From: Bryum argenteum | Lineage: Eukaryota; Streptophyta; Bryopsida; Bryales; Bryaceae | Assembly: GCA_037043015.1 (NCBI GenBank) | Contig: CM073321.1 | Location: 7,460,001 to 7,524,000 of the forward strand | Reading direction: 5' to 3' | DNA: 64,000 nt | Part shown: piece after piece, positions 2,986-26,721 of the stretch | Layout: each line of letters starts with the position of its first letter | Position numbering within the stretch: position 1 is the first letter of the stretch | The notes under the pieces: model-generated | Database searches by the model: none | Seen by the model: only the letters and a program-made list of their open reading frames with translations | What the model was told of the DNA's origin: nothing | Program-made: the position numbers and the translations under genes

Positions 2986-5900
2986 TCATTCTATTAATGC
3001 CTTTTGTATATCATTATACAGATCTAATGATGCACGATCATCATATATCATGGCACGGCCAAATGGAAATGATGACCGAAACTTGCTAAGAGGACCGTCA
3101 AATTGATGGAGCTCTAACAGATACGGTAAAACCTCATCTAACAAAATAGAATCCTCGTGTGCCCTATTGTGAACCCGGGAAACGGTTCACTCTAGCGGGG
3201 ATGCATTCCCGCAAGGTTTAGAGCGTAATTGTCATGTTTCCATGGTTTAATTAGACTTTTTAGCTCATTTCGTAGATTCACGGAATATCCGTGGTCTCAA
3301 AGGGGGTTTTGGCACAAGCGGCCCGTTCTTGATCTAATTTATACCAAATTGGTATTTTTGATGAACGCCAATATATTAAATGGCGAGTTTTTAGTGTGGT
3401 TTAGCGATTACGTATTTCTAAGTAGGGGTTGAGGTGCCCCATTTTGCCCTTACCTTCTACAAAACCCCTAGTTGAGGTTTGGTGCCCTTATCTTGCCTAA
3501 TTGTTTAGAAAAAGCTATGGATGGAAGTCCGTCCAACTGGGCAGATGAAATCCACCCAATTGGACGGATGAAGCTTTTTGCTTCAACCTCCCTAGATCAG
3601 CCAGGGAGGGAGTTAGTCGACAAGGGAGCCTTTAGGCTAGTTTTTTTGGGTGTTGCTTGTTCTTTTCATGATTTTGGTGTATGGATCGAGGGATGTTTGC
3701 TTGATTGTGTTGTGATGATAGATCTGGGTGGGAGTGAGGGTTAGTAGTTTTTTTGGTGTGAGTTTGGGGAAGTGTGTGCGAAGGAAGTAGGAACGGAGCT
3801 TCTGGTGTGTGATAGGAGGGTTGCGATCCAGCCCCACCAACGGCCACTGCGCCGGATCGAGCAGGACGGGGGAGCCGGAGGCGTCGCCTTCAACAGAGCG
3901 GAGTGGTGAGCGCCGGCAGTGCAGCAAACGGGGTTCATCCTGGGCTCAAAGGCCAGCATTGGCGGTTACTATCGACGGCGATCATGGAAGCTGATCCGCC
4001 GACATCAGGAGCGTGACGACGTCGAAGGGAGGAGCCTACGGAAGCTGATCCGCAGGCACAGAGCGAGGGCTACCAGGAAGGCGGTGACAATAACGACGAG
4101 GAGCACGAGGGCGACCACGGCGCCGGACTTGAACTTGGACAGAGAGAGGTCGCGGCTGGATTCCTAGAGCGACAGCTGGTAACGATCCATCTTCTTGGAC
4201 TCGGCCTTGTTGATTGTCGCGGGCGTCTGCATGGTCTCGATCTTCTTCGACGTCCTATCGATGGTGGACCGGAGAGACTGGTAGTTTGTGGTGCGGTAAA
4301 CGAGGAGCCAGCTGATACCTTCACCGACGACGGCGACCCTGGAAGCCGATATTTGTGCTCCGAGGGCTGGCGGAGGTGGAGTCACCCGCACCCAACATCA
4401 ACGGAAAATCTAGTAGCGGCAACTCCGCACCGACGTGCGGCAGCATCACCAGCGCTCGACAAAGTCAAGGCGACCCAGGAGCCATAAGAACGACGGCACA
4501 AGCAGATCACCGGCGACACACCGACGACGATCGACAGCAGCGGATCAACAGAAGGGGCAAGCAACTCCAGTAAGCAAGCTGGATCGGTAGCGAGCCGTCT
4601 ACGGCAGTTGAGGACGACACGACAGAGAAGGAGGGCCACCAGAGACAGCACCAAAGGCACCAGCCAGCGATCCCATCTTCGGCAGCAGCAGCGGAACGAC
4701 GACGACGGCGCAGGGCAGAATCGGCAGCAGCTCCCGATGCCCTGTCCCCTCCGTGATATTACGGAGGGTAGACAGGGTGATATTATAGAGGGAGCTCCCT
4801 CTTCTTCATTTTTTTTCTTTTTTTTGCATTGTTCTTTTTTGCTAAGTTTTGTGGGTTGAATACGTAGAGTTTGTAAACTTTGTCTAAAAAAATGGCAGAT
4901 TCTTTGCCCAAATATCGGTGGTGTTAATTTAATTCGTGTTGCATACTCATGTTTTTGATGTTTGCCTTGGTTGAAATGGTTGTACCTTGCTTGCCTTGCT
5001 GATTTAGATGATTAGTTGTTAGAGTACACTAGGAGTAAGGGTGGTGCGGAAGCGCTGCCCAAATTTTATGCTAAATTTACAAATTTAGGTTAAGAATTCG
5101 GGGTTTTGGGACCAAGCGTGGAAGCGCTGCCCAATTTAATTTCGAAACTTCAAAAGTTTAGGTTGCGAAGATTTGCTAAGATTGCTAGGTTGTCCATTGC
5201 TTGGAAGGTCAAATTGTTTGCACTCCTCCCCCACGGCCCAACTTGTGAGTTAGAAAGGGAACACCGGGATTTAACCTCACACCTATTGTCCTTGTGAGAC
5301 CAAGATGGTAGTAAAAGAACATTTTCCCGCTGATTAAGCACGTGCTCAACCGGACTATTATCTAAGATGAGCGTATTAGCCTCTGTATAAAAACCATCAA
5401 AGCTATCGAAGAGATGAGCTAACAAGGTCTTAAGGAAGATAGACTTTTGAGTTCCCGGTTCCTTCATGAACAATGGTCGGCTCCCACCAGATTTCAAGGG
5501 AATCATGTCACAGTCTTCTTGACCAAGAATTCGTAGTGGCCTTATAGGGTTTATAGGACCGAAGATAAAATCACAAATGGCTTTTGTGGTTGTTCTCATC
5601 ATCAAACTCCAAACCGTGATAGTAGCAAACGATGCCACACGAGAGAGGAAGTCCTTACAGTTGGGCCTCACCCATACAAGCTTCTTCCCCACCTCGGTTG
5701 GCAACCTGGCCGAGTGAACACGGAAGTCACGGTTTCTGTATCCTTTAGCTTCCCAAAATGGGGTACAATTGCAGAGGATACCATTGAGGTCGAGAACAAC
5801 ATTCAACCAAGTACCGGAGGATTTCCTTGGAACCCGACCTATGCCTTCTCTAGAAATTAAATCATTGACCGATGCTTTGTTGACCTGAAATGAAAACGGC

Positions 5901-7582: not shown

Positions 7583-8926
7583 GCAGACTGCTTTTCTGCC
7601 GGCGTAGACAAGAAAGATATTCTCCTGCTCCTGGCAAAAAAGCTGGATGACCTGCAAATAAAAATCCATCCTCAACTCGATCGGGTACATGTGATACCGA
7701 GACTCGTTGTACTTCCGCGGCTTCTCGTAAAGCGCGTGCTTTGGAGCGCGGTACTCGGTCTTTGGCAATCTCGCGAGTTTTACGTCTTCCCTGATCATGA
7801 AGAGAAGACGCATGGGGTGCGAGGCTTGCTTGGCTTCCACATTGAATCCCGCGATCCGTTCGTGCGGGGATGGATAGTACTTCGGTGGAATCAGCTTAAA
7901 ATTTGCCCCTGGGAAGCAGGCAGGATTTTTCGCAAACGCCTCAATTTGCGCACAATCACTGTCATCCCCGCAAATGAAGTACCAGCAAGGTACATCCGTG
8001 AGAGGTGGCTTGTTCTGAGACGATAAGATCGCCATGAACATTGCGAAGAATGAGTGATTAGGCGAGGAATCAGCGGAGGTGCTACCACTACCGGGAATCA
8101 ATCTGAAGTCGATGATTCCAACGTTCATCTCAAGAGCAACCTCCGGCCATGAGTTCTCAGGCCATTCTTCAAGCCTCTGTGGTGTTCTGTGATGGAAGGA
8201 ACGGAATATAATACTACCAACAGGGCCTATAAACTTCTTGCGCTTTTCCAAGAACACCTCAAAGAACCTCTTTGCGTAGGGAGAGAGATCCTCGCACTTG
8301 GTATTCCTGTGATGGGATCGCCTCTGATCTGCATAGTACTTATCAGGATCACCCCACTACAAAAGTGCGCGCTTCGAGGCCTTTGTGACGTGGTAGTCTC
8401 TCTTGAACTTCTTCCACGCATCCACGTCGAACTCGTTGTTTTTGAAGATTCCGAGTTGCGGTCTGATCTTGTGGATCTGAAGCTGGGCGATCGCCTTCCG
8501 CTTCAACCGTTCAACGTACTCCTTTATGGAGTAGCAATCATCAAGAAGGGTTACTGGCTGTTTGGAGGTAACCTTCGGGTATTCCAGTTTCCGCGACGGA
8601 CCTAACTTATTTAGCATATGGGTACAGAGTTTCCTGTGGTCTGACTCTGAAAGGTTACCGAGGTTTTTAAAAAATTCCCTAGACAGGGTTTGGTCGTTAT
8701 CTGGTTTAAACCCTGGCTTGTCACACAGCCTCCTCAAGGAGTAGGGGTCGATAAGGGTCCTTTGCACGACACTTCCGATCAACTCTGCCCATAGGTTCCA
8801 GAGATCATCAGGGAAGGTGATGATCTTTAGCTCATTTGTTAGGGACAAGACCTTGTTCTTCACCTCTACTTGGACCCTGGCAACATCAATCATGGCGAAC
8901 CTATGCCGAATAGAGTCAACGAATTT

Positions 8927-9182
8927 CTGCAATGCTACACAAGTAATGTAAGATTTCAGAGTATAACAGAGCGGTCACTTTAGCTCGAGTTGAGCTAAGT
9001 GTGCATCCAAAATTAAGAAGAAGTTGTTTTAAAGTTTGGGGTTCATTAAGCAGCAATGACACTTTAGCTCGAGTCGAGCTAAACTGCAATGACAATTTAG
9101 CTCAACTCGAGCTAAACTGCGACAGGAAATTATTTGCAATTCCAGAAGGAAGAGATGTGATGCGGCATGAGGTAATACTTAC
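8927..9182 (-). other. Intron 1 (256 bp) with three palindromes
   Basis: Donor GTAAGTATT and acceptor GCATTGCAG. Palindrome copies at about 8976-9000, 9061-9087 and 9092-9119. No similarity to the other two introns beyond the palindromes is evident by eye. Confidence 0.6.
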
Positions 9183-10479
9183 GTCAAAATATGCGAATTT
9201 TGACAGAACTCGCTTTGCTTGCACTCGTTTGACTGCCACCCCAGCTGCTGCATGTCTGTTTGTTGGGCGCCCGTAGTTCTCCCACACGGTGCGGGCGGCA
9301 AGGATATTCGATGCCCATGTCGGCTTAAACGGAGTGAAATGGTTCACTCTGTTATAGAACGTCGATATTTTGCGGAGCTTGGCTTCACCCTTCGTCCAAA
9401 CTACGAAAGCAGACCACACCCGGAAGTCCTTACAAATGGTTTCTGGGACTTTGGACTTAAACATCTACTTTAACGTGGCAACACTGTGTTGGCCGTTGAT
9501 TATCTAAAACTTGCAGTCCTGCATATCTTCAATGCCGTTTGGCTTCACATCCAGTTTTGGCATCACGCAAAGCATTTGCTTCTGCGACCTGTCTGGCATA
9601 TTGATGAGAAAATTCATCAAGTCCGTCTTGCCTTTCTTCTTGAATGCCCGAATTGTCCATTGTGGAGGGGACTCAATCATCTTCATTGTGTCGATCTCCA
9701 TCTTCGTGTCAGGTTTAGGGAAGACGAAACAGTCCTGACAGTCTGTGAAGAACTTCTGATAGATGAGGTTGACGTTCTCGAAGTCAATTTCCTCCACGGT
9801 ATTCACGGTCTTTGGAATGCATTGAATAGCATTGTTAAAAGCCGTTAAAGCATCCTCTGCGGGGATGAGCATGCTCTTCTTCTTCTTTGCCTCGGCCGAC
9901 TTCTTCAAGGGAGCTTCTCTCGTCTCTATAGGTGAGTCAGAAGTCGTGGTGGTTGTAGGGGCAGGCCTTGTAGCACGTTGCGGGCGTGATGGGGTCCTGC
10001 TCTGTACGCCGCTCCCTGTTGCAGTCAGCCCAGATTCCTCTAGTGGAGCTTTTCCTTTGAGGTGTATAGTCTTCGCCATAATGTCAGCCTGTCTAAGAGC
10101 CGAGACTACAGATCTTAGTTTGATCGCGAGCTGCTTGGCCTTGAGATCTCCCCCCTGTTTGGTTTGCCATGCTTTAGTAAGCATATCATGTTTCAATGTT
10201 GTTTTGATATCATCGAAATTGGACGCCTCTAAACTCTTCACTAATTTATACATCCTAGTACTACTTGCAGTTTAGCTTGAGTCGAGCTAAACTGCAGCCT
10301 AGCGGTTAATGAGCAAGCTAAATGAAATTCACAGTTTAGTTTAACTCACTAGAACCAACCGGGCTAACTGTACATAAGATTTGAAAGTCATTGAAGTACA
10401 GCCTTCACCGTCATCCTTAAATTGTTGTATTTAAAAGTTTCTTTTAAACTTGGGCAGCAGTAATCGAGCGTAGCATCTA

Positions 10480-10826
10480 CAATTTATCTCGAGTCCAGCT
10501 AAACTTTAATAACTTGTGTCAACAACAGTTTAGCTCGAGTCGAGCTAAACTATAAAGACTTGGGTCAACTACAGTTTAGCTCGAGTCGAGCTAAACTCTA
10601 ATGACTTGTGTCACCAACAGTTTAGCTCGAGTCAAGCTAAACAATAAAGACTTGGGTCAACTACAATTCAGCTCGACTCGAGCTAAACTGTAATGACTTG
10701 TGTCAAAAACAGTTTAGCTCGAGTCGAGCTAAACAGTAAAGACTTGGGTGAACTACAGTTTAGCTCGAATCGAGCTAAACTGCAATGACTTGTGTCAGCA
10801 ACAATTTAGCTCAAGTCGAGCTATAC
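10480..10826. repeat. 46-bp tandem array built on a 25-bp palindrome
   Basis: Units start at 10480, 10526, 10572, 10618, 10664, 10710, 10756 and 10802, an exact 46-bp period. Each has arms AGTTTAGCTCGA and TCGAGCTAAACT around one central base. Spacers alternate between acttgtgtcaac and acttgggtcaac, giving a 92-bp higher-order unit. A single extra copy lies at 10268-10294. The eighth unit stops exactly where the CAGGGATGTCA end of the adjacent hAT-like element begins. Confidence 0.9.
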
Positions 10827-10909
10827 CAGGGATGTCACAGCGTCCGGACGTCCGGCAAGGGTCCGGGGACCATCCGTGACTTAGGGATTCTGGTCTTTTT
10901 ACTAAGGGT

Positions 10910-11200
10910 AAATGACTATCGGGGTGCGTTCATTGGTCGAACCACCCCGTCGACCGGTCCTCCAGCTCGCCGTCGGCCCGACCGACCAGTCGGCTGGCCG
11001 GCCACCGGTCCCGGGTGACCGGCCTTCGCTCCGGCCGTCCGCCCAGGCGACCGGCGGTCAGTCCGGCCGTCGGCCTCGGCGACCGGCCCTCGTATCAGGC
11101 AACCGCCTATGGCCAGATGGCCCCCTTCAGCATCCAACGGTTTGGGAGCATTTCAACTTCAAATTGCAACGGTCATATTCAGAGTTGGATGGTATATAAG
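10910..11200 (+). promoter_or_regulatory. GACCGG-array promoter with TATA box, transposase gene
   Basis: About 180 bp very rich in gaccgg, cggccg and ccgtcggcc (10925-11105) is followed by TATATAAG at 11193-11200, about 200 bp before the transposase ATG. The other genes of this region have the same arrangement. Confidence 0.6.
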
Positions 11201-11400
11201 AAAAGAGACATTGAGTCTCATTTCACTTCCAAATTTTGAACACTTTCCAAGGGCTTTGAGCTGCATAATTCATTTTATGTGTACATTGCTTGGTAGGTAT
11301 TGAGTTCGGAAGTGAGGATTTCCGTAAGGAATTCTTGCCATTTTTTTTCACGTCACGGTCCCACCACTGTTTATGACTTTGAGATGTCCTATTTATCAAA

Positions 11401-14307
11401 ATGGGCCCTGCTCCATATGAGCTTTGGTTTAGAGACATCGAGAAGGAAGGCAAAGCGTCTGAGTCCTTCATACAATGCTCACTATGTCATGTAATAGTTT
11501 CTAAGAAGAAGAGTCGAAATCTGAGTCATTATGGGTACGAGAAGATTCCTGGGCATAGGGATTTGAGTTCTGCCCTTTGCCCAAAGCTGCCTAGGGAAAT
11601 TAGGCAGTTATATTTAAGATGTGGCGGGGAATTCCCTCCATATAACGGAGAATTGGACGGATTTCTTGGTCAATGTTCTCTCACTCCATCCACGGACGTT
11701 CCAGGTGCTTCAAAACATGACATTCCTGAAACCCTTAGGAGTGACTCTTGTGTAGGGTCCTCGCTAGGCACCCCCATGAATTCAATAAATCTTTTGGTTG
11801 GGTCAACCTCTGCTTCTTCCATGCTTATGAGGGGAATTAAGGATACTCGCCCGATGTTTGGATCTATGAAGCAAACGAAGCAATCTTCATTGAAGCTACT
11901 TTTGCAGAAGCGGATAGGCGGGAGTTGGATAAACTCTGGGCGAAATTTTTTTACGAAGCATATATACCATTTTCTGTAGCCCGGAATGATGCGTTCAAAG
12001 CTGCCGTGATGAAGACTGCTAGATTTCGAAAATCCTATGCTCCACCATCTTACCATGACATTTGGACAAGGTTGTCAGGAGGAGTAAAGACGGAGTTACA
12101 AAAGAAACTAGATTGTAGACTCTCGGAGAGCCTTCGGAAGTTTGGAGGAACTTTGACCATGGATGGATGGATGGTCATCTGTGACTAGTCGCCCTTTGGT
12201 GAATGCGATGCTCATGACTCAAGCTGGAGAGCTTTTTCTCGGTGCCGTGGATACTACTGGCATAGAAAAAACAGCGGTGTACATGTCAACTCTCATGTTG
12301 AAGTACATAGACCAAGTTGGACCAGAGAACATTGTTCAAGTATGCACAGACAATGCTTCTGTAATGCTCAATGCCTCCATAATAATCCTTGAGAAATATC
12401 CGCACATTTTCATGCAAGGTTGTGCGACACATGCAATGGACTTGTTGTTGGACGATTGGGGAAAGGCTGGATGGATGGCGAATACTTTGGTCATGGCGAA
12501 GAGAATGGTCAAGTTTATCAAGAGGCGACAAATGCCCCTAGCTGTGTTTCGTAAACACGAGGCAAAATTCAACCTACTGATGCGTGGGAAAACAAGATTT
12601 GCTAGTCAATTCATAATGATAGATCGCTTGTTGGAGGTCAAAGAATCATTGGAGCAAGTTGTTGTCGACCCTATGTTCACAGCCTATGCCTCGATGAAGA
12701 CGGTATCTGCTAGAGATAAGCTTATATTCTCCCGTAAGGTCAAGAAGGTGGTGTTGAGCAATGACTTTTGGGAGCAATGCAAAAGATTACGGGATATGGT
12801 GGCCCCCGTAGGCTACGCTTTGACAAAATTCGACGGCAAGGCTCCTAGTACGGGCAAGGCTCGGCATATCATGCGTGATCTTGAGAGACATGTCCATACT
12901 TTGCATGCACCGCCAATCTCATTGGAACCACTTGAGGTGGCCACCGCAAAAGAGGAGTTTTACCATCGGAAACGGCTGATGACAACGGATTTACATGGCG
13001 CGGCTGCACTTTTAAATCCTTATTTACTACATGACCAAGAGTTAGTTGACGATCCCGATCTTACAATAGCTTGCAAGCGTGTTTTACAAAAATTATGTCC
13101 CGCGGAGGATTACGCAGACGTGGTGAGTGAATTTCTTGCGTTTCGAGTAAGGGGTCCACCATTCCATGACATGCTGGAGCCTAATACTCAAAAACTAGCT
13201 CCACATGCATGGTGGGAGTTTGAAGGTGCTTGTGCTAAGCTCCTCTCTCCAATTGCAAAGCGAATACTAGCACAGACCGTGTCCTCGTCGGCTTGCAAAC
13301 GCAACTGGAGTAGCTACTCTTATGTTCACGACAAGAAACAGAATCGGTTACTACCGGGCAGAGCTGATGACTTGGTTTACATATATTCCAACTCGAAATT
13401 GCTCGCGAATGATAAGTTGAGTGACGATGGGCGGTGGTATAGAGAGAACTTGGATTTAGAGAAAGACCAAGTACATGAGAATGATGAGGAAGCTGTCGAG
13501 GACGAATCAGAGTCTGATGACAATGATGTTTTTGAATTTGGTGATGAAGACGATGATATGACTTTCTTCCCTGCTTCAAATGATGAAGATGCTCCAAATG
13601 TTCAGGATGCTAATGGTGATTTTATCGCTCATGGTGTTTTGGCGGATGATCTAGATGATGAGCAGCCGTTAGCACGGTTAATGACAGAAGGGGGCATGGA
13701 CAAATCGAATAACGTCCTACCTGTTATCGCTAGTGGTTTACGGTTGGAAAAGGAGGCGATAGATGTGAAGACCACTGCGTGCAATATTACTGCGGGCACT
13801 ATGAGCTCTGATCCGGTTGCGGAGAATATCGCATCCGGTAGTAAGGATCAAGTATATTTACAATGTGCTACTCCCCGCGCTTTATTTCAACCCTCTACTA
13901 CAAGGGTTACGACAACCTTGGACAAATCCTCTATGGGTTTAGTATCCCTTTCAAGAGCCAAATATGGGAGCATCGCTAGTGACTCTGATGTACCGTTGGG
14001 CAGGTATTTAAAAAATGCCAATGTTCCTCGTACTGCCACGGGGTTACAATACATGCTTGGCACTTCCAAGTCGCATAAACGAAAATCTGCAACGGTTCCA
14101 ATTGTTCTGCCTAAAAAACCGAAGATCCCTGTTAATCTCCCCGAATTTGATACTTGGCATAAGTATGGGAATATACAATGTCCGGAGAATAAACCCAAGA
14201 TCAAAGAGGAGGTTCCAATCGATTATGAATATGATCCTACGGGGTCTAGTGGAGCTGAAGTGAAGGGAGATAGCGATTATGAGCAATCCTCTGGTCCTGA
14301 TGAGTAG
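11401..14307 (+). pseudogene. hAT transposase, frameshifted
   Basis: hAT transposases cut and paste elements with short inverted ends. The N-terminus (from MGPAPYELWF) has a BED-like C-x2-C finger (CSLCHVIVSKKK). The middle matches the DUF659 region (VCTDNASVMLNASIIILEKY, then CATHAMDLLLDDWGK). The C-terminus has the hAT dimerisation domain (WWEFEGACAKLLSPIAKRIL, SSACKRNWSSYSYVHDKKQN), followed by an acidic stretch and a basic KKPKIP tail that may be a nuclear signal. The frame changes twice: somewhere in 11850-11925, and at 12159-12174, where ATGG is repeated four times and three copies would keep the frame. The piece from 12163 to 14307 is otherwise open over about 714 codons, so the gene was intact until recently. 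Confidence 0.85.
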
Positions 14308-14630
14308 TTGAATTTGGCATCTTTATGTAGTATAGGTTCATAGGACTTATACTTATTATAGAAATTGTAGCTATAGTTTACTGTAGTACTTTATTGTTAT
14401 ACTCCAAATGCATTTGGAGATTCTATTGTCTACATGACTACATTTAATGTGTTGAAAAATTACAAATATTTTTACATACTTGTCGTACGATAGTCTTCAC
14501 TCTCAAGCATACAGAAGAAATACACATTAAATCAAAAAGATTGTAACCCTTTACTTCAAAAATAAGGCCCCATGGATCAATGGTGGCATTTTCATCATTT
14601 TTAAAACAACATCCATACAACCTAGAAAAA

Positions 14631-14683
<53 letters not shown>

Positions 14684-14720
14684 TATACGTGCAAATTAAG
14701 GTCCAACATCCGTTCTAACT
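14308..14720. other. Convergent intergenic spacer with (TA)n
   Basis: A/T-rich space between the 3' ends of the transposase and the RING gene, with a pure TA microsatellite at 14633-14679. No gene seen. Confidence 0.7.
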
Positions 14721-17700
14721 TCAAACTGAAGATCCATCCGATTGGCCAATCTGAGCTACACTACGAGTACGCGGTCTTTGACTTGGACGGGCAATTCGAC
14801 TGCCCTTTTCATACTCTCGATCCACGGCTGCGATTTCGCCTCTCATCTCCGCTTGCCAACTATCCTCCCCATCTTCGCCCGATTGCCTCTTCCGCTTTTT
14901 GCTAGGATCCTCTTGTTTGTTACGTAAGATTTCCATGACATTCTCGATCTTTGCAACGAGATCCTGTACAACACCTTCGAACTCATCCAATAATAGAAGT
15001 TGTGTGTCTTTTGGGTTTAAAAAGACATTCTCTCCAAAATGAAATGTCGTCATCGATACGCACATCAAACTTCTTCGCCGCATCCCAATAAGAGACCTCC
15101 ACATCTTCAAAAGAATTTTCCGGTATCGAAGTCCAGTATATTGTGGCCTCCTCCAATTTCGCAAGTACCACAGCTCTTCCAATTGGAGTATGATCGTACT
15201 TCTTGTACTCCTCACCAAAGCTGGTTGAATCGGTTATTTCGTGCCACGAACCATCTTCTCCCTTTTCCACTCTCTTCGGAGGAAATCGAAAGAAATGGTT
15301 GTGTTCGACGCTCCAATGCCCTCTAAAATTACGACAAAACAACTCTCGTTGCTCATCACCTTCAATATTCCTCGCCCTTATCTCTATTTCGTAATCTCGT
15401 GTCATCCAAAATAACTGATCATGATCCCCACCGAATTGAATGGCTAGTTGGTGTTTTGATTCGGACGTACTCTAGTTAAGTGCATTTCCCCAATCAGAGT
15501 AGTTTAGAAATTTCTTTGGGTATTGATTCAGTGGAAGATTCCATCGGTTGAACTCGTGCCCTGGTGGCATAAGATCTCGTAGGCCCATCATCTCGTAGAA
15601 TCTTGTGCTAAATGGGGAGCGACATACCGGACATACCGATTTTGTCATCGCATATCGGCATATGCAAGTAACATGGAAGTTATGGCCACATTGGCCCAAC
15701 GTGTATGCGCCCTCTGGACCAAAATGATGTAGGCACACCGCACATTTGTCTTTAAGTATTGCGGGAGGAGGGTCGCATGTGTTGATTACAATGCGAGCTG
15801 ACTCTTGTAGGTGCGATGAGAATCTACTATACGGCGCCCATCCTTCCTCTATCTCCAAAGTCCAATCAACATCATTGTTTCGTCCCACCTTAGAGTAGTT
15901 TGTACGCTCCATTATCTCTTCAATATCCCCCCAAAAAGTGACCTCTACGGGGTCATATCGTTTTTTCGATCTGTTCGTACAGAACTTCTCCAATGAAGCA
16001 TCTACAACTTCACGTGATTCTTTTGATGTAGATGCAATCGATTTCAGATCTTCTTTTGCCCTCGAAACCAAGCTCCTCCTATCTTGAAGTCGATGAACCC
16101 ATCCCAACCATGGTAGTATGCGTAGGTGGATTGTTGCCTCTGTAGAATCTACCGTTTTGAAGGTTTTTTGTAATGCTTCCAATTCAGCGACTGCCTCATC
16201 TCTCTCTTTACTTGTAGCCTCCAACTTGATTGAGCATGCTTTTGCTTCCTCCTCCAATTTCGCAAATGTAACATCTCTCTCCTTCTTCGTTGCCGCAAAC
16301 TTCATCGCCCATGCTCGTTGTCGCTCAACCTGTGCATCATCTCTCTCCTTTTGTGATATCTCCAACTTCAATTCCCCCGGAATTTCATCATCGTCATCAT
16401 CGACTATTTCGATAATGGTTTTTCCCTTATCTTCTTTACCATCCTCTTCACCAACCTCTTTGAGAGGAGATAAACCCTTGATATAGGTCTGTCCCTTATC
16501 TTCTTCACCATCCTCTTTACCACCCGCATCAATTTGTGAAAGAAGAAGACTATGAGAAGTCCCGATAATGGTCTTCCCCTTATCTTTATTACCATCCTTT
16601 TCACCATCCTCTTTACCACCCGCATCACATTATGCAACAACATGACTACATGAAGCCCCCTGAGTGTCATTCTGTGATGGAACAAAGTTGAATCGATTAT
16701 CTTCCAAGTCTTCTAACGCATCCCTTTGGCGCATTGCTTCTTGGTACTTTGCCACATACTCGCTAGCAGGACCTTGGCCAAACAACCGCAATTCCCTGTA
16801 AAACTCGTCAAGGAGACGTTGCGTAATTTGGTGTTGTTGTTGCATTTTGATAATGATCTGATAATCTTTGACTCGGCCCGTCAGTAGAAGATCAAACCGA
16901 TCTACGAGTGCCTTAAAATTTATGGCAGCTCGTAGAACGTTGGGCGTGATACCCGCAAAAGTGTGAGCCATCTCTACAAAACGAGGAGCCATATCCGCAA
17001 GTATTTCTGACCCTGCCTTCAAGTTGAACCCTAGAGCAATTAACCTTTCAGCCGAAGTATCTCCCCAATCAGTCACTGGCAAGCCCTGCTCTTTATTTAC
17101 CTCATAGCACCAATCTGCCAATCTTTCTGCTTTTTTCATCCACTCATCCAATGTGTTATCCTGTACTTGATAACGCATATACCTCTCGAACTTTGGCGCC
17201 GCACCCGAATCGAGATCCATGTCATCCATGGCATGAGTTGGTGCTCTGGTTTCCCGTCGTTCACTTGGCCCTGCCTCCTCTGATGTTGGTACCGAAGTTA
17301 CATGAGGTTCTTCAACTACGTTTGCACCTTCGAGCCTATCAGTTATAGTCGGTTCTACGATTGGGGCATCCGTGGCAACCATATTCCTTCCATCCTCCTG
17401 ATGTGTCGTGGTTGTTGGAGGAGATTCTTTCACCGCCGTCTCATGAGTTTTCCTCTTCAAGTGCTGCAATAAGGCCTTTGTAGAGTTTGATTCTGGATCA
17501 AACATATCTGGCATATCCTTCTGATTTCTCCCGATTCGAAGAGGAAATGCACTACTCGCCGTGAATGTGCTCCAGTTCACCTTGCGGTTCAATATTAGCT
17601 CAGCATACACCATGCTCAAAAGCGTATAGGAAATATAACCTTTGCTCTTGGGACGAGTTTCAAACAATGCCACCCAAACTTCTTCAGCACGATGAAGGAA

Positions 17701-18057
17701 GTGATCATCCTTGCATGTTTGAGGCTTGCAAGTAAAATTATTGGTATTCACTTTGTGACATTTTCGAGGCCAAAGTTTCCCAATGTGATACATCTTCACA
17801 TATTTCTTGCACGTCGCCAATCTCCAGTATTCCTCCGTTTCATTGGCCCAACCGCTCTCAGCTTTGATGGCCTCATTATCCAAGATCTCGTAGTGCAACT
17901 CATGTCTCGCTCCTTTTGGTTTCACTCTCTTTGACGGTGTCTCATGTAAAACCAACTCAGTCCCCACCAATCCTGCGTTTGTGTTTTCTGTCGCAAGTGA
18001 CCTCAAGGTCTGTTCAGAATCAGCCTCCATGTTCGTGTTATCGATATCCGTCGCCAT
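14721..18057 (-). pseudogene. CKKY-domain / RING-H2 protein (about 1,100 aa)
   Basis: One frame runs from ATG 18057 to about 15040, broken by TAA at 16630 and TAG at 15472, then shifts frame near 15040 and ends at 14721. Residues 77-164 form a domain with CKKYVKMYHIGKLW, a CKDDHF motif and NRKVNWST; Cys83, Cys110, Cys115 and His119 are candidate zinc ligands. Next come a long charged region with GGKEDGEEDKGKTII-like repeats around the first stop, a coiled coil, a FWGDIEEI segment and a perfect RING-H2 finger at about 772-812 (C-x2-C-x14-C-x-H-x2-H-x2-C-x10-C-x2-C), then RFYEMMGL and a C-terminal region with NLS-like KKRKRQ. RING-H2 domains usually act as E3 ubiquitin ligases; that role is inferred. 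Homologues lie at 20719 and 27022. I recognise no named family for the N-terminal domain. Confidence 0.7.
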
Positions 18058-18224
18058 GAAGAATAGGGAGTATTTAAAATACCCCGAAGAATTCCCAAGT
18101 ATGCAAAAATTCGATGCAGCAGCCGCAAGTATCACGCAGACTTCCTCCCGCCACTACAAATGCAGCACACGAGAAGCTAATGCCCACGGTTGCAGCTTAG
18201 TTGAGATGGATCAATACAAGGAGA

Positions 18225-18545
18225 AGTGAGGGGAAATGAGGCCACAAAGGCCTTTTATCCCCCCTCCTTCCCAACCAGAGACCGGCAGCACGGACCGGTC
18301 GCTCGGCCAATTACGGCCGCGACCGATGCTGGCCGGCCGGTCCGGCCGACGGATTGTGGCCGGTCGATCCGGTCAATCGATCGGGGCGGGCCGATCGTAG
18401 CCGGTCGTCCGCGCCGGCCGGTCGCTGACGACCGGTCGCCGCCGACCGGCCACGATCGGCCGACCGATGTGGCCGGCCGATTGTGGCCGCTCGATGTCGG
18501 CCGACCGATGCCGGTCGACCAAGGCGGTCGACCGATCTCGGCGAT
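18225..18545 (-). promoter_or_regulatory. GACCGG-array promoter with TATA-like box, RING gene
   Basis: Plus-strand 18290-18540 is dense in cggccg, gaccgg and cgatcgg. Read on the minus strand it is followed by GGATAAAAGG (18251-18260), about 195 bp before the ATG at 18057. Confidence 0.6.
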
Positions 18546-18578
18546 CTCTGCGGTTTTTTTTTGTAAAATCTTTTTCAA

Positions 18579-18590
<12 letters not shown>

Positions 18591-18658
<68 letters not shown>
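18591..18658. repeat. (TA)n microsatellite
   Basis: An uninterrupted AT run that creates the artificial Ile/Tyr reading frames seen on both strands. Confidence 0.95.
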
Positions 18659-18661
<3 letters not shown>

Positions 18662-18693
18662 TATATATATACAAGTAATTTTATCCATTAGAT

Positions 18694-18721
18694 ACCCTAA
18701 ACCCTAAACTCTAAACCCTAG
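18694..18721 (+). repeat. Interstitial telomere-like repeat
   Basis: Four units of ACCCTAA-type sequence (accctaaaccctaaactcta..., one variant). CCCTAAA is the telomere repeat of most land plants, which supports the plant assignment. Confidence 0.7.
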
Positions 18722-20459
18722 AGGCCTACATAGTAATACATACATCTTAAACCAAGAACTTAAATCCTATCTTCAAGTGATTTTATCCAGTAGATACCGT
18801 AAATGAAGAAGTGATGGCTCTTCAAAATATTCTATTCCCAAATCAATCAATCATAGTATACGAATAATCAATTTTATTTAACATCTAATCTTAGTACTAA
18901 TGAACTATACGTGTACAATATCAAATATGATTAAAAATTTAGAAGTTGATGCCATTATTGCCATATGTTAAACACTTATAGGGTGGGATATTTTCATAAA
19001 TTTATTTGTCTCCCTATTTATTTCTCTCATTTTATGATCGCAAATTAGTAACAATAGAAACTTATTTCTATTACCTTTGTAAGAGGGAAAGAAGTAATTA
19101 TTGAAATACATACAATAAGAATAATGCTACAATGAATTTTTTTAAAAAGTATATTTGCAAATGAGTTACAATTATATGTACTAGATTATATATATACTCC
19201 TAGGTTAGTTGAAGGGTGTCAGACAAAAAATAGCGAATTATAGAATAAATTGTTTAAGCACAATGTTTTTTATAATAAGTACTACTAAATTAGATACACA
19301 ACGATTGAGTAATTTCCAAATACCCATTGATTAATATAGACCATAAAATGTGGAAAAGTTAAGGCCCAAATAGGAAGTCTAAATATTGACAAACACAGTA
19401 ATACCAAAGTTATGAAAAGTAAATGCTCACACATGGTCACCTATATTTCATATATACTTGGATCTCTCCAATGTTAGACATCACTATACTCTCACCAAGG
19501 AATAGTTAAAATTTATGGAATGTAATCAGAGAGGATTTAGGGCCACCTCGTGGTACACAGTAGGGGGCAACTCATGAATGGGGGCCAAAACATGGCAAAA
19601 TCTCCTAGTGAGAATGGATAACTTTTGACAAAAGTTGGGAGATAGAAGAAATGAATGTGAATCCATGGGAGCTTGCAATACTAGCACTCACCACTACGAA
19701 CTATGGTGAAACCACCTAAAGGCGGGCAGCCAAGATTCTTGCCTTTATAAAGATCTCACCTCCCTTGCATGTACCTCATGCGTACATATTTAGGGTGCCC
19801 GCCTTTAGGCTTCTCCTTCTAAAATTTGTATTTCTTTATGTGTGTGCTTTAAAAAAGCACATAAATAGGGTTATCTTTTCTTTTTCTATTCCCTATCCGT
19901 GAGAAATAGTAACCCACTCCTTTCTCACACCAAGTATATATATTCCCTCAATTTTCCTTAAGGGCACGAGAATAGGTGGTTTCACCATAAAGGGGCTATG
20001 TCCAATATTTTTGAATATATTTTATAATTTCAACCTTAGGATCTTGAGTAGACTACCATATGTAGTAGTGTGAAATCTTCAACCGTTGGATCATCACTAG
20101 ATGCGAGATGATATCATTTGAAGTTGAATATGAAACATTTTTTGGCCGTGACGGTAAAAGACGAAATGGTGGCCATGGTTGTTAAGGTGTTAGGAAAGAA
20201 TATTTCAAAAAAATAAGAAGTAAAAAATAAATGTGTACAGATAAAAAACATGGACTCTAGTTAATAATAAGAATTGGCCCCATGGCCTTGGCTCTCATTC
20301 TAGACATGGGCTTCAACTCCGAAGGACTTCACGACTCGGAAAATTGGCCCCACTAAATTGATTGTTAAATGTTTTGTCCAATTGAAGCTAATTGGGCAAC
20401 ATAACTCAAAAAGTGAGTGAATTGGCTTGGAGATTTGTTGGCCTTCACTCCTCTTGCAA
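18722..20459. other. A/T-rich spacer between divergent promoters
   Basis: Apart from the MITE at 19704-19987 I see no gene, RNA or repeat structure in this 1.7 kb. Confidence 0.6.
19704..19987. mobile_element. 284-bp MITE with TA duplication
   Basis: Starts TGGTGAAACCACCTA and ends with its inverse TAGGTGGTTTCACCA, flanked on both sides by TA (19702-19703, 19988-19989). No coding capacity. The TA target suggests the Tc1/mariner (Stowaway-like) group; that is inference. Confidence 0.8.
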
Positions 20460-20580
20460 AGAGTCCCTTATTATTGGCCGGTCGGCGGCCAATGGATCGC
20501 CGATGTGACGGCTGCCGTCCGGGATCGGACGGCCAGTGCCAGCTGGCCAATGGCGTCCGATCCCCGGTCGGTATAAATAA
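20460..20580 (+). promoter_or_regulatory. GC-rich promoter with TATAAATA, CKKY paralogue gene
   Basis: A cggccg/gaccgg-rich block with CCAAT-like ggccaatgg twice leads to TATAAATA at 20572-20579, about 140 bp before ATG 20719. Confidence 0.65.
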
Positions 20581-20718
20581 GAGGGGTGGGGCTCATTCTC
20601 CCTCACTGTGGTGAACGGGCTGTACGTTGCGGCTTTTTTTAAAGCTGCATCGACTGCGTTGCTCAGAGTCCGCGTGGGTCACCCACGCCCACACTGTCCA
20701 TACTTGTCGCTGCTAGGA

Positions 20719-21937
20719 ATGGCGCCGAAGTTTTCACATTCGAGGGGCGAGGCCAAGTCTCCACGACCAAAGGGCGACCCTCCTAAAATGGATTGGGAAG
20801 CATGGAGTGACCCAAACTGTGTTGCTGAGCCGGGTTGGCAAGAGGAGAGGGCAGACATTTGGAATTGCACCATGTGCAAGAAGTACGTGAAGATGTATCA
20901 CATAATGAAGTTATGGTCGCGGCACAAAGCAGAGAAATATGGTCCATGTCGCGAAGGCCCAGTGAAGAGTTGCAAGAGCGACCATTTTGCGTATAGATAT
21001 CATGAAGTCACAATTGCGGTTTGAATCAAGAACACAAGGCCAGAGTTGATGCTGTATTCTACCATGGCCATGGTGTGGGCTAAAATAGTCCTTCACAAGG
21101 ACATTGACTGGACCACTGTGATAGGTTTGAACGTGCATTTATTGGATCGCAGCAACCGATTCATTCCAACAAATTGGATGGGACCAAGCGATTGTTAAAC
21201 GACTTATTCAGAACGTTCAGCTGATATGGATGCCCAACTTCAACAACATGGAACTCCAAGGGCATATGGGGGCACTAACCAAGACTCAAACCATGACGAT
21301 CGTCAAGCACCAGTATCCTTTGGCACAGGAAGTGAAGGGTATTACCATGGAAACCACCAATTCAATACTCCGGTGAGTTATATGCCACCTCATGAGCAAA
21401 ACACGTACGGAGTCGAACGCGAGTACGGTAGAGGTGGATCTAGTTCGAACTACCCATCTCCTATGTATACTGGAGGTACACATGGTTTAGGAGGTGAGCA
21501 GGGTAGCGGATCCAATGCTCAATGCAACTCAAGCCCAACTCATTCTATAAACCCATACAATCGTGAGATCCAATACGGTACAACATTCGGAAGTCCCGAG
21601 TACCGTAGGCCATCACACCCAAAAGAAACATACGAGTATGGAGGCTAATATGATAGAAGATCAGACATTGTTAGTTACACAAAATTATGGATATGGTCAG
21701 AATGCATAGGGAAGTAACGACATGCCTTCAGCACCTTTGCTATCTCTTGAGGACGAAGAGGCGAGGTACCAACGAGATCTGCAACAAGCCACACTTCTAA
21801 GTCAGCATGAATACATTGAACAGCTTGAAGCCGAAAGAAACTTTAGGCAAACTTACTTGTTTGGAGAATCTTCTCGAGGACCACCTTCTTACGGCGCTGC
21901 GCCAAGTCGTAAACATGATGATGAAGACTCGGATTAA
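20719..21937 (+). pseudogene. CKKY-domain protein with prion-like tail
   Basis: The N-terminal domain is homologous to that of the RING protein: MCKKYVKMYHIMKLW, SCKSDHF, then after a TGA (21022) MVWAKIVLHKDIDWTT. A TAA follows at 21196. From 21226 the frame encodes a Gly/Tyr/Asn/Ser/Pro-rich, low-complexity tail (YGRGGSSSNYPSPMYTGGTH), the kind found in prion-like and RNA-binding proteins. A TAA at 21646 and a one-base frame change near 21670 separate a last acidic helical segment (LSLEDEEARYQRDLQQATLL) ending at 21937, itself preceded by a TAG at 21707. There is no RING finger. The start is the ATG before APKFSHSRGE, chosen for its distance from the TATA box. The function is unknown; a scaffold or RNA/DNA-binding partner of the RING protein is possible. 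Confidence 0.65.
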
Positions 21938-22650
21938 GAATGACAAATCATCATACATAGTATCATTATAGTGAAGGTTATGTAGTTTTTTGCAACGGAT
22001 AATGTCTACACCATTATCGCCTTGCTAGGGGCCAATTTTGAGGATCCTGAAATCCATATTTTGTTTCTGCATGGATTATTCAAATATCCGACTATATCAT
22101 TATATATTAATATACTATGCAATTTGTTATTTCAAGGATTTTATCGCGATGTCTTGTATTTTTACTATGAATTCACTTGGTGGTAATAATTTCTATTGTT
22201 TGGCTTTAAGCCTTTTTTCACAGTCTCACACTCTCACCTAACATATGATATGTTCATCAATTCATACAAATAAAGGCATATGTAAGAAAAGTCATATTAT
22301 GCTTGACTTGACTTTGGACAAACCATTAATATCGCAACTACGCAAGGTTGATATAATGAAGAAGTTTCACAATTCATTATATATTCTCAAATATTGTTCA
22401 TGAAGATTTGGAGATAATTCTATTGAAGGTATGAAGTAATAAAATAAAATAACAAACAATGGAGAAGAAGTCATTCATTAGAATCATTGCAAGGTATATA
22501 TAAACAAGAATGTACTTGAAGCCGCTACATATAGAAGCCATGTAATACATTTGACTACAAAAAGTTTGCCTACATCTACATGAGAACTTCAATGAAGAAT
22601 CTAAAAAGCTAATAAAGCCGTAAGAACTAAAACAGATGCTCAGAACCAAT
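21938..22650. other. Convergent spacer, no gene seen
   Basis: A/T-rich sequence between the 3' ends of the CKKY paralogue and the kinase gene. No structure recognised. Confidence 0.6.
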
Positions 22651-23871
22651 TTACTTATCATACTTGGTGCGATAATGATCATTTGGCACCGGCCAATGGA
22701 AAGATTCCATGAAGCGGTTGACAACGTGGGTCAGCGTATACTTTGCATCAGCCACCATCTCCAAGTATTGGTCAAAAGCACTTGCCAAGTCTTGATTGGA
22801 GCACCGGTCAGGCCCCGTTGTACTTTGGCAATTCTCGTAGGCCGTCGATATGCTCTTCTTGAGGATTCATTGTGCTATTCGTGCCGTAGCAAACTTCTCC
22901 GAAGCGCAATCAAGAAGGGGAATAACGTCAATGTCATCACTCTGTTTGTACAAGTACGCCACCCGAGGATCTACCCAATATCGTGCTTCTAGAGTATCAA
23001 TTCTCTCTTGGGGTTTTGTGAACGTATACAAGGACCTCATTTTATCATCCATGCTCGTGGTTAGCCCCCAATCGCATACTCTAATATACACTCGTGATTC
23101 ATCTTGAGGGAAGTGAAGAAGTATGTTGTCTGGAGACACATCGTTGTGGAGGTAGTTCAACCGGTGGACTTCACACATGATATGCACTAAAGCCCAAGCA
23201 AGCTCTGTTCGTTTTTTGCGAAACTGGACCAACTGCCAAGCTCGAATAAGCTCATCATCAGAATGAGGTGAGAGTGCGATCTCTCCCTCAACATCATCTC
23301 CATATCTTGCATCAAGGGCCAACATCGATCGAATCGTGCCGCTATTCCACCAATATGTATAGCCTTGGAACTTATTTGCATGAATGGCTATAAAACGAAT
23401 AACGCCTGGATGTTGTATCCTCACAGCAAACGGCTCATTCTGATGCTCCACCTTAGCCAAGTCTGGTCGTGTCACAGCATGGTTGGGAGTCTTTGCAGCA
23501 AATTCCCCGTACTCTTCAATGGATACAACCCCTCTTCTGTAAACTTTGGAAATTGTGTCGTATCCTCCTCTTAGAGTCTTCCTCTCAAATCCACGCTTAT
23601 CGGTCTCCGGTCTCCACACTGGATCTTGGAGCGCTTCCATCATGAGGTCCATCATGTCGTCCTAGAATTTGGCCTGAGCTTCGTCTTTGTATCTCACGTA
23701 TTTGCTGAGCAAACGTGAAAAACTATTGGCCTCATAAAATTGCACGATTGCATTCTCCCGAAGAAAGTTCTTGCACTTATTGGATGGGTGCTCCCACTTT
23801 TCAAGATATCTAACAGGCCTTGGTCTCCGGCCTCGATTCCGCCCACTGCCCCCAACCCCATGTTTGGGCAT
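22651..23871 (-). pseudogene. Protein kinase-like gene with two in-frame stops
   Basis: 407 codons from the ATG at 23871 (MPKHGVGGSGRNRGRRPRP, a basic start) to TAA at 22651, broken by TAG at 23662 and TGA at 22867. The catalytic loop is LHNDVSPDNILLHF at about residue 242, keeping the base Asp and the Asn. The Mg-binding motif is CDWG (DWG for DFG) at about residue 267. The N-lobe (VRIQHPGVIRFIAIHANKF) is divergent and I could not place the VAIK Lys or the glycine loop. Kinases of this kind transfer phosphate from ATP to Ser/Thr or Tyr; the substrate is unknown. The gene is convergent with the CKKY paralogue and lies inside the putative hAT-like element, so it looks like cargo. The HND-SPDN form resembles fungal and plant transposon-associated kinase-like proteins only in a general way. 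Confidence 0.7.
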
Positions 23872-24038
23872 CTTTTTGAAAAAAAAAAAAAGCAAAATCT
23901 CCCCCTTACAAACGGAAAGACTCCTTTTCCCCCAGGATAAGGAGCCAGTGGATGAAAATTAAAAAAATTTCCAACCTACAGCCACTCCGCACTCTGAAAA
24001 GGAAGGAAAGAAGTGAGGAGAGTGGAGGACCGGTCGGC

Positions 24039-24480
24039 TTTATATAAGCCGCGGTCGCATGGTCGACCGGCGACCTAGATCGGACGGCCGATGGCCGACC
24101 GGCCTGACTGATCGGACGGCCGGCGCGGACCGGCCCGACCGATCAGCGGCGGCCAACCCGACCGATCGGACGGCCGACGGAGACCGCGACCGATCGGGTG
24201 GCCGGCTCCGACCGGCTCGAGTGACCCGACCGATCACCGGCGGCCGACCCGATCGATCGGACGGCCGGCGCCGACCGGGCGGTTGCGACCGTTCGGACGG
24301 CCGACGGAGACCGCGACGGATCGGACGGCCGACGCCGACCGCGCCCCATCCGACGGCCGACCGAAATCGCGACCGATCGGACGGCCTTCGGCCGATTAAG
24401 CGACCGATCCGTCGGCTGCGACTGATTCGACGCCGTCGATTGGTCCGTCGGCCAAGGCCAATCGAACGGTCCTGGGCCGC
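24039..24480 (-). promoter_or_regulatory. GACCGG-array promoter with TATATAAA, kinase gene
   Basis: Over 400 bp of cggacggccg, gaccgatcgg and cggccgacc repeats (24060-24475). Read on the minus strand they lead to TATATAAA near 24040-24047, about 170 bp before the ATG at 23871. Confidence 0.65.
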
Positions 24481-24599
24481 CCTTTACAATCCAATGGTAA
24501 CCACCTACACTCACAACACTATTTGAACGACTACGATGCGACTTTCAATACGATCTGACGGTTAAAAGATTTACTACATGCATAGTAATTCCGATTTAC

Positions 24600-24698
24600 C
24601 CCCCGGGCGGACGTCCGGACGGTCCTGGACGAATGTCCGGCTGGTCGGACGTCTGTCCGACCAAAGAAACCCAAAAGACGTCCGGATTGACATCCCTA
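24600..24698 (-). repeat. Right terminal and subterminal repeats of the hAT-like element
   Basis: Contains ggacgtccggacggtcc, gaatgtccggctggtcggac and gacgtccggattgacatccct. The last matches the left end at 10828 in inverted orientation. Confidence 0.6.
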
Positions 24699-25666: not shown

Positions 25667-26721
25667 ACATACTCCTATCCAAGGGATTGGACACCGATCG
25701 CGCAATCCGCTTTGGACAAAATCAAACAGGCTTATTTGTAAGCCCCGATATTACTTGCCTCAAACTGGACCAAGCTATTCCAAGTCCACACAGATGCCTC
25801 CAAGATCGCCGTAGGAGTCATGTTAGCACAAAACGTCAACGGCAAGCACGATCAATCTGTGGCCTATGCTAGCAGATTGTTGAACGAGGCAAAATGCAAC
25901 TACTCAACCACGGAAATGGAAGCACTAGCTATGGTCTACGCAGTCAAGAAATTTCGGCATTACGTGCTAGGAAACAAGTTTCGTTTCATGGTTGACCACC
26001 AAAGCTTATCTTACTTAGTAAACCAACCATTGATCACCAAACATGTAGCTCGGTGGATCATGATTCTCATGGAATATGACTATGAGGTGGTCTTTATACC
26101 AGGAAAGCGGCACATAGTGTCAGATTACTTTCTAGGGACACCAATACCACGTGGAAGGCATAGACGATTCCTTAAATAAACCATATATCCAAGCTGTCTC
26201 GCTGAACGCGAGCCTTGCCACCACAGAAACCCAAAACGAATGGAGTCAAGATACCATGGCCTACTTAGTTCATGGCATCATTTCAACATGACTAACGGGC
26301 ACACAGAAGAACTATTTCGTGCGAACTACGTTGCCATACACCGTGGTTGACGGCAAATTGTATTGCAAAGGGGCTGATTTCGAGATCAGACTCTATGTAT
26401 TCACAGAGGAGCAACAACAAATTGTCCCTAGCCTCCTCACTGGCCGCGCTGGCGGATACCAGGGACCCGAAACTACAATTAAAAAGATACTTCCTGCCAA
26501 ATATTGGTGTTCCACGGTACACAAAGATGTATTTACATGTATCAAAAATTGCCACGCTTGCCAAGTTGCCACCACCAATTTCCAACATCAAGGAAAGGTA
26601 CCACTTAAACCCATAGCTCCATTGGGACCATTTTAGCGGTGGGGACTAGATTTTGTGGGGCCAATCAAACCAGCAACCAAACAAGGATACAAATACATCC
26701 TTGTTGCCACGAATTACTCTC
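25667..26721 (+). pseudogene. Tat/Athila-like gypsy fragment, RNase H to integrase
   Basis: Collinear with 63236 onward in this window. It encodes RNase H (VHTDASKIAVGVML, then LLNEAKCNYSTTEMEALAMV) and the start of integrase (CHACQVATTNF, then GLDFVGPIKP), and stops within the integrase core where a GC-rich promoter block begins. Several frame changes and stops (TAA near 26177, TAG near 26635). It keeps a stretch of RNase H that the copy at the right edge has lost. Confidence 0.75.

Follow-up and report, generated by a model that had tools for sequence, protein, structure and literature searches.

hAT elements are compact transposons that usually carry one or two genes, and transposons with many non-transposase genes include giant elements such as Starship and Teratorn, the latter reportedly a piggyBac-like fusion of 180 kb. 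The hAT superfamily (Ac, Hermes, Tol2 type) is defined in PMC12506042 by an 8-bp target duplication and ends of 5-27 bp. Starships are characterized by a tyrosine-recombinase captain (PMC12506042). ToxhAT, or ToxTA, a fungal 14-kb multigene element, was once called a hAT (PMC9594970 and PMC12506042); PMC12506042 reports a 2-bp TA duplication and 74-bp ends, places it now in Tc1/Mariner and regards it as probably non-autonomous. VANDAL elements carry dense arrays of short motifs in their non-coding parts, with sizes that vary between copies, according to PMC5735166 and PMC10398659.

The element described here shares with the hAT superfamily a dimerisation domain, short inverted ends and 8-bp duplications, but differs in its length of about 17 kb and in having four genes, which is surprising because hAT elements usually have one or two. 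It resembles ToxhAT in carrying several genes at about the same size, whereas the TA duplication, 74-bp ends, Tc1/Mariner placement and single copy set ToxhAT apart. Starship and Teratorn likewise carry many non-transposase genes, but differ in the tyrosine-recombinase captain of the former and the piggyBac-like fusion of the latter; no Starship captain domain (DUF3435) was present among the four proteins of our element. With VANDAL/Mutator-type elements encoding VANC it shares several genes and element-specific motif arrays in non-coding regions; VANDALs, however, are not hATs, and the transposase domains here match hAT families only, not Mutator-type ones. VANC, its motifs and its binding appear unrelated to the present element, for which array binding with methylation removal of the VANDAL type is putative. 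Searches of open-access papers turned up no hAT that carries RING and kinase genes.

The window, a 64,000-nucleotide stretch of the Bryum argenteum genome, very probably contains one decayed member of a family of ~17-kb hAT transposons with four genes of their own. Its features are as follows, with positions counted from the first base of the window.

10827..24698, + strand: whole element copy, decayed, 13.9 kb; both ends are repeat boundaries genome-wide, and other copies have 8-bp duplications
10827..10852, + strand: left terminal inverted repeat, CAGGGATGTCA-cagcg-TCCGGACGTC, the TCCGGACGTC part at 10843-10852
10900..11110, unstranded: CGACCG array upstream of TP
11401..14307, + strand: hAT transposase gene (TP), broken, with six stops ahead of the last one in the start-codon frame
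14721..18057, - strand: AR gene, encoding an A domain, a coiled coil, a RING-H2 and a C-terminal domain; interrupted by stops and a frameshift
18220..18560, unstranded: CGACCG array upstream of AR
18581..18694, unstranded: AT-rich junction, with ~2.3 kb of the AR-B interval missing relative to copy E3
20474..20494, unstranded: junction, with ~0.5 kb missing relative to copy E3, including most of the B-upstream array
20719..21933, + strand: B gene, paralogous to the A domain but lacking a RING; broken; end mapped from copy E6
22657..23871, - strand: kinase gene (K), broken, ~270 bp missing near 23587; ends mapped from copy E3, and start codon read
24031..24480, unstranded: CGACCG array upstream of K, in ~28-bp tandem units
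24677..24698, - strand: right terminal inverted repeat, TAGGGATGTCA from 24698, then a, then TCCGGACGTC at 24686-24677

The element runs CAGGGATGTCA...TGACATCCCTG, and its terminal inverted repeats are short, as in hATs (11 bp, a short gap, then 10 bp); the first base of the right-end repeat is C in most other copies. Judged from the window alone, the match between the ends is weak: a scan with the 10-mer at one mismatch gave 9 matches versus 5.3 expected, and 11 of 100 shuffles gave as many. With these window statistics unconvincing, the ends were accepted as real because many genome-wide alignments stop at exactly these bases. The left end scored at at least 40 places in the genome and the right end at at least 41, with many alignments stopping exactly at outer bases 10827 and 24698, respectively. 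Twelve left ends, that of the window copy among them, pair with a right end in matching orientation at a spacing of 12.9-34.7 kb. Positions 10827 and 24698 are thereby confirmed as the boundaries of one repeated element, as the initial annotation had proposed from the matching inverted ends. Its own counter-scenario, in which each end belongs to a separate short element, did not materialize, with B or K lying inside, in the expected orientation and within 25 kb, at 39 of the 41 right ends and 25 of the 40 left ends listed.

Both ends were read in 17 copies. The 8-bp target duplication is exact in nine of these, matches at 6-7 of 8 bases in three, is swapped between two neighbours in two and is absent from three (the window copy, E8 and E9). 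The lack of a duplication at the window copy (flanks agctatac / atcggagg) had already been recognized, and the suggested search for further copies with both ends, the duplication and the same genes was successful; copy L007, for example, is bounded by both ends and flanked by an exact duplication. The accompanying search for empty insertion sites found none in the one assembly available. In the right flank, the first ~100 bp match weakly at one further place, and the remainder is a dispersed repeat. The duplications show that many copies bear insertion scars. A plant-type TTTAGGG telomere was seen at one of the four contig ends read.

The transposase, ~970 aa in better copies, is an intronless frame of 967-973 codons in copy E1. 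The initial annotation's hAT transposase was borne out by Pfam matches in the window to DUF659 (5.6e-27) and Dimer_Tnp_hAT (1.8e-10), and the hAT C-terminal dimerisation domain PF05699 scores above cut-off in E1 (2.2e-11). In the motifs MDGW, CTDN and ERNW, which we take to hold the hAT catalytic acidic triad, the first Asp is retained in 10 of 11 copies, the second in all 11 and the Glu in nine, being replaced by Lys in the window copy and E9. By its transposase domains, ends and 8-bp duplication, the element is a hAT.

The RING protein and its paralogue that had been annotated are both there, but the frames labelled 'RING' (15472-16371) and 'A' (16630-18135) in the window are fragments of a single gene and not distinct genes: in copy E2 the A, RING and C-terminal parts form one 1,159-codon frame, which excludes separate RING and A genes. 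In better copies AR is intronless and encodes ~1,140 aa. RING-H2 matches at 5e-9 in the window (PF13639, above cut-off), and the C2-C-H-H-C-C2 zinc ligands are intact in the majority of 10 copies, and single ligands are lost in others; on this ligand pattern, AR is predicted to be a RING-H2 protein. B, also intronless, measures ~440 aa in better copies and up to 451 codons in E6, and is 36-40% identical to A across about 90-126 aa. No Pfam family scored above cut-off for the A/B domain, and no solved fold matched it; structure prediction yielded a confident domain for B and, for AR, a model of pLDDT 38 that was set aside. Full-length relatives of AR exist elsewhere (two of four, with 94% coverage and 44% identity), and 34 relatives of B were found. 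A viral source for B was rejected, since a pattern scan of viral contigs returned no B relative.

K is intronless and ~490 aa long in better copies, lying inside a 508-codon frame in E3. Its match to Pfam Pkinase (2.2e-5) is kinase-like, with a score under the curated cut-off. Across 17 sequences, among them 16 of the 23 K relatives found, HND is nearly invariant and the N and D-W-G are invariant, so that the catalytic-loop Asp/Asn and the DFG-like Asp are recognizable at sequence level. An intron in K was excluded because the 270 bp missing from the window are coding in other copies, and pattern scans of viral contigs and prokaryote genomes showed no relative that would indicate a viral or prokaryotic source.

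The genes are paired convergently, TP(+) with AR(-) and B(+) with K(-), as first read in the window, and the order TP(+) AR(-) B(+) K(-) is common to the ten pairs of ends compared, with losses in E6 and E7. Other copies measure about 17 kb and more, the better ones with four intronless genes, whereas all four are broken in the window copy; the annotated 13.9-kb unit is thus real, but its length reflects internal deletion from ~17 kb. Shared stop codons excluded a fifth gene between AR and B. Among the loci listed, B or K lies downstream at 47 of the 62 for the transposase (mean 1.4 and maximum 6 of 500 in random draws), and TP, B or K occupies its expected position at 35 of the 41 for AR (mean 0.8 and maximum 5 at random), which contradicts independent occurrence of the four genes away from these ends, the other outcome that had been named as fatal to the annotation. 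The partnerless loci among the matches listed (15 of 62 transposase, 6 of 41 AR) imply neither independence nor linkage. Variants shared within family 1 indicate constraint on TP (omega 0.45, p 2.7e-5) and K (omega 0.50, p 0.023); for AR and B it is weak (omega 0.78, p 0.096, and omega 0.63, p 0.064, respectively).

A second family has proteins 43-56% identical to those of the first, and the single copy of it that was read through keeps all four genes in this order. In TP, AR, B and K of that copy alike, the codon position with the most differences is the third; the left end of the copy is tentative, and TP and AR contain 11 and 8 stops, respectively. In a second family-2 copy the aligned B stretch (145 codons) is without third-position excess. 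With family-1 B as query, a B match lay near 2 of 20 family-2 kinases, as may be expected if B is too diverged. As shown for one family-2 copy, the three extra genes have been kept with the transposase at least since the two families split. Because family 2 has the same genes in the same order, they look like old components and not recent passengers; the regulatory-type cargo of the initial annotation is present, but not as a late acquisition.

Upstream of each of the four genes lies an array built from a short CpG-rich motif with the core CGACCG. In 11 counted copies, its density is 14.9/kb upstream of genes versus 0.69/kb elsewhere (478 motifs in 32.2 kb versus 119 in 171.9 kb); copy E4, outside this count, has arrays at the same places. 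By analogy with VANDAL and VANC, the extra genes could form an element-encoded regulatory or anti-silencing module, a possibility that we hold somewhat short of probable. More specifically, we tentatively propose a chromatin-control module in which a new A/B DNA-targeting domain recognises the arrays at the four promoters and, with the kinase, strips or blocks silencing. The transposase would cut and paste the element via its short inverted ends; the domain common to the RING protein and B would bind the CGACCG arrays; the RING protein would ubiquitinate, clearing host silencing or repressor proteins off the element's promoters; B would compete with the RING protein or assist it; and the kinase would tune the complex or the transposase.

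hAT transposases bind subterminal regions, and two of the arrays are subterminal. The arrays might then be transposase-binding repeats spread by internal duplication, of which the B-upstream region, duplicated inside the element, is an instance, with the RING protein, paralogue and kinase serving transposition (timing, transposase stability, repair) instead of anti-silencing. We consider this unlikely, as the arrays upstream of AR and B lie kilobases from either end in both families. An effect of the extra genes on the host or on inheritance, through drive, a poison-antidote pair with B as antidote to AR, or altered cell-cycle or defence signalling, is rather improbable: a RING protein beside a RING-less paralogue could conceivably be an effector and its antagonist, but nothing points to a host target, and the promoters have a common element-specific motif.

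The frequency of RING and kinase domains among host genes and the weak within-family constraint on AR and B would suit capture of the three genes from the host by a hAT, as Pack-type passengers. This origin is very improbable, given that a family only 43-56% identical shares all four genes and their order, that the frames are long and intronless, and that another element gene is in place at most of the AR loci listed. That two separate elements lie side by side with ends matching by chance, as the missing duplication at the window copy might suggest, is scarcely credible; 8-bp duplications flanking the whole unit in other copies refute it at the family level, and the gene order recurs.

If the chromatin-control module proposed above is real, it would constitute an anti-silencing system of an origin separate from that of VANC, acting via ubiquitin and phosphorylation. 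A conserved four-gene hAT that encodes a RING protein and a kinase, with one motif array common to all its promoters, would show that a cut-and-paste element is able to carry its own regulatory circuit, and the arrays together with the A/B domain would offer a concrete test of how transposons escape silencing in plants.

The element at 10827–24698 is a hAT element by domain, ends and duplications, and its four genes, encoding the transposase (TP), a RING protein with an A domain (AR), its RING-less A-domain paralogue (B) and a kinase (K), are co-inherited and have common promoter arrays. The left end, CAGGGATGTCA, starts at 10827 and the right end, TAGGGATGTCA, is found on the other strand from 24698; both were read directly in the sequence, exactly where the initial annotation had placed them. 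Behind both outer end sequences of the window copy, TCCGGACGTC follows after a short gap. Searches of the assembly (258.8 Mb, 25 contigs), in which the window lies at C1:7460001–7524000, returned 47 matches for the left-end query 10827–11400 (from the best 40 of 331 candidates), many beginning at query base 1, and 79 for the right-end query 24240–24698 (from the best 40 of 262 candidates; tallied as 41 places), many ending at base 458 or 459. Both ends are thus genome-wide repeat boundaries. Among the matches listed, 12 left ends, including the window's, are paired with a same-orientation right end 12.9–34.7 kb away; ten paired copies (E1–E10) were fetched and examined, plus end stretches of eight more, four left sides being taken from the left-end search. 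At 10479–10823, directly against the left end, the window has tandem 46-bp repeats whose core, GTTTAGCTCGAGTCGAGCTAAAC, resembles a palindrome; it also holds the following features:

5150–5806, (−) strand: frame with NLI-interacting-factor-like phosphatase domain (PF03031, 4.6e-12)
25820–26179: Ty3-type retrotransposon piece (RNase H)
48474–53017: Ty3-type retrotransposon piece (gag, protease, reverse transcriptase, integrase, chromodomain)

Target duplications were tallied in 19 copies including the window copy, with both ends readable in 17 and no end found at one side in E2 and C1:43486991. Nine of the 17 have an exact 8-bp duplication (gtcttctt, gtggtgtc, ctctcgag, ctcaattc, tgtgtcgc, attcgaat, cttgggac, gtctcgaa and gttagtat), and in three the flanks are alike at 6–7 of 8 bases. 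The flanks of the neighbouring copies E6 and E7 (C1:36942704–36996330, opposite orientation, ~24 kb apart) are swapped, with attttcaa on both and gacaagca/gacaagga, as if by inversion through recombination between both copies, from which this pattern is expected. E8, E9 and the window copy have no duplication. The missing 8-bp duplication, initially regarded as the weak point, is therefore real for the window copy but not a trait of the family, given the exact duplications in nine copies.

The gene order TP(+), AR(−), B(+), K(−) recurs in all ten fetched pairs; AR and K are each partly lost in E6 and E7, E4 and E10 carry insertions, and part of the E10 AR lies outside the fetched sequence. The frames are interrupted in many copies, the longest being:

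TP: 973 codons, copy E1
AR: 1,159 codons, copy E2
B: 451 codons, copy E6
K: within a 508-codon frame, copy E3

The A domain and the RING, at first annotated as separate genes, belong to one gene with an extra conserved C-terminal part. Four AR relatives (1,039–1,140 aa) in other public sequence all align over the whole protein, RING included; two cover 94% of AR at 44% identity and two cover ~40%. The window copy is decayed: it has stops or shifts in TP, AR, B and K, and lacks ~2.3 kb and ~0.5 kb between AR and B and ~270 bp within K.

Loci were counted by genome searches with each protein as query, and all figures refer to the matches listed. K gave at least 146 matches, divided according to rank between 126 family-1 loci (the family of the window element) and 20 at 61–67% identity; the other queries gave at least 150 B, 62 TP and 41 AR loci. 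B stands in the convergent place at 82 of the 126 family-1 K loci (median distance 2.5 kb), K lies near 83 of the 150 B loci, and a B match lies near 2 of the 20 more distant K loci. Downstream of TP, B or K was found at 47 of 62 loci (both at 26, neither at 15), against a mean of 1.4 and a maximum of 6 in 500 random draws. The 41 AR loci have TP in place at 19, B at 31 and K at 26 (any partner 35, all three 12, none 6; random mean 0.8, maximum 5). The lengths of some contigs were estimated for these controls. Contig C1 (44.1 Mb, 17% of the assembly) holds 45/62 TP, 26/41 AR, 111/150 B and 90/126 K loci, an excess for each gene (binomial p 4e-11 or less). Possibly C1 is a sex chromosome or one that recombines little. 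Its final 400 bases, judged by eye, break off within an AR-like gene belonging to this family of elements; the TTTAGGG telomere repeat, seen at one of four contig ends read, marks the host as plant-like.

In 11 copies, the motif CGACCG (either strand) occurs 478 times in the 900-bp regions upstream of gene starts (32.2 kb) versus 119 occurrences in the remaining 171.9 kb, where most belong to a fifth array located between AR and B. The count leaves out E4 altogether, and its upstream set omits AR of E10, AR and K of E6, and TP of the family-2 copy on contig C6, so that the E6 K array is tallied under elsewhere. K arrays have 15–35 motifs each; the B array of the window copy is almost lost (2 motifs), and the density in the rest of the window is 0.42/kb. 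In 12 hand-picked arrays, CpG observed/expected is 1.17–1.71.

A diverged four-gene family, family 2, was read through in one copy (C6:15913000–15950700), with the same order TP(+), AR(−), B(+), K(−), an insertion between AR and B, and a left end whose location is tentative. Arrays lie upstream of its AR, B and K, and 37 motifs stand ahead of TP, including nine beyond the tentative left end. Its proteins match those of family 1 at an identity of 0.50 (TP), 0.43 (AR), 0.50 (B) and 0.56 (K), and differences at codon positions 1/2/3 are 0.37/0.33/0.54, 0.41/0.34/0.54, 0.37/0.31/0.51 and 0.32/0.26/0.52, respectively, counted in protein-guided, partly overlapping alignments somewhat biased towards third-position excess. 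Stops number 11, 8, 1 and 0. A second family-2 copy (contig C5), whose end TTTGACAACCCTG closely resembles the family-1 end, shows the same pattern in K (0.32/0.25/0.51); its B has no third-position excess in 145 aligned codons (0.40/0.42/0.42). The non-coding AR–B interval (E3 8160–13090), which contains a second version of the sequence upstream of B, is 71–82% identical in family 2, a higher likeness than the proteins show. Beside the right end of the C6 copy (~15913000–15917100) lies a reversed AR piece that stops just before the RING and is, by eye, near-identical to that copy's own AR.

Within family 1, variants seen once look nearly neutral (omega 0.84–0.97), as expected of dead copies. 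Those common to at least two copies are constrained in TP (omega 0.45, p 2.7e-5) and K (0.50, p 0.023), and weakly so in B (0.63, p 0.064) and AR (0.78, p 0.096). Median pairwise dN/dS is 0.48 (TP), 0.70 (AR), 0.58 (B) and 0.65 (K), with single B pairs up to 1.86.

Its size and its set of genes distinguish the element from the usual hAT element. Our literature search found no publication with this gene set, which is not proof that none exists, and turned up ToxhAT as the sole multigene 'hAT'; the TA duplication of ToxhAT has led to its removal from the superfamily (PMC12506042). The arrays resemble in character the VANC-bound motifs of VANDAL elements, described as dense, in non-coding parts, and with gains and losses in the form of tandem repeats (PMC5735166; PMC10398659).

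The A/B domain was predicted with confidence (pLDDT 89–95, residues 61–170 of the protein sequence P0028, from 31 of 34 relatives), and comparison with solved folds found no match. RING-H2 proteins are usually ubiquitin ligases. Across 17 sequences, which include 16 of its 23 relatives, K retains HND, N and D-W-G, and it is probably an active kinase. We tentatively propose a joint reading, somewhat short of an even chance, in which the A/B domain would target the CGACCG arrays, AR would remove repressors, B would modulate and K would tune.
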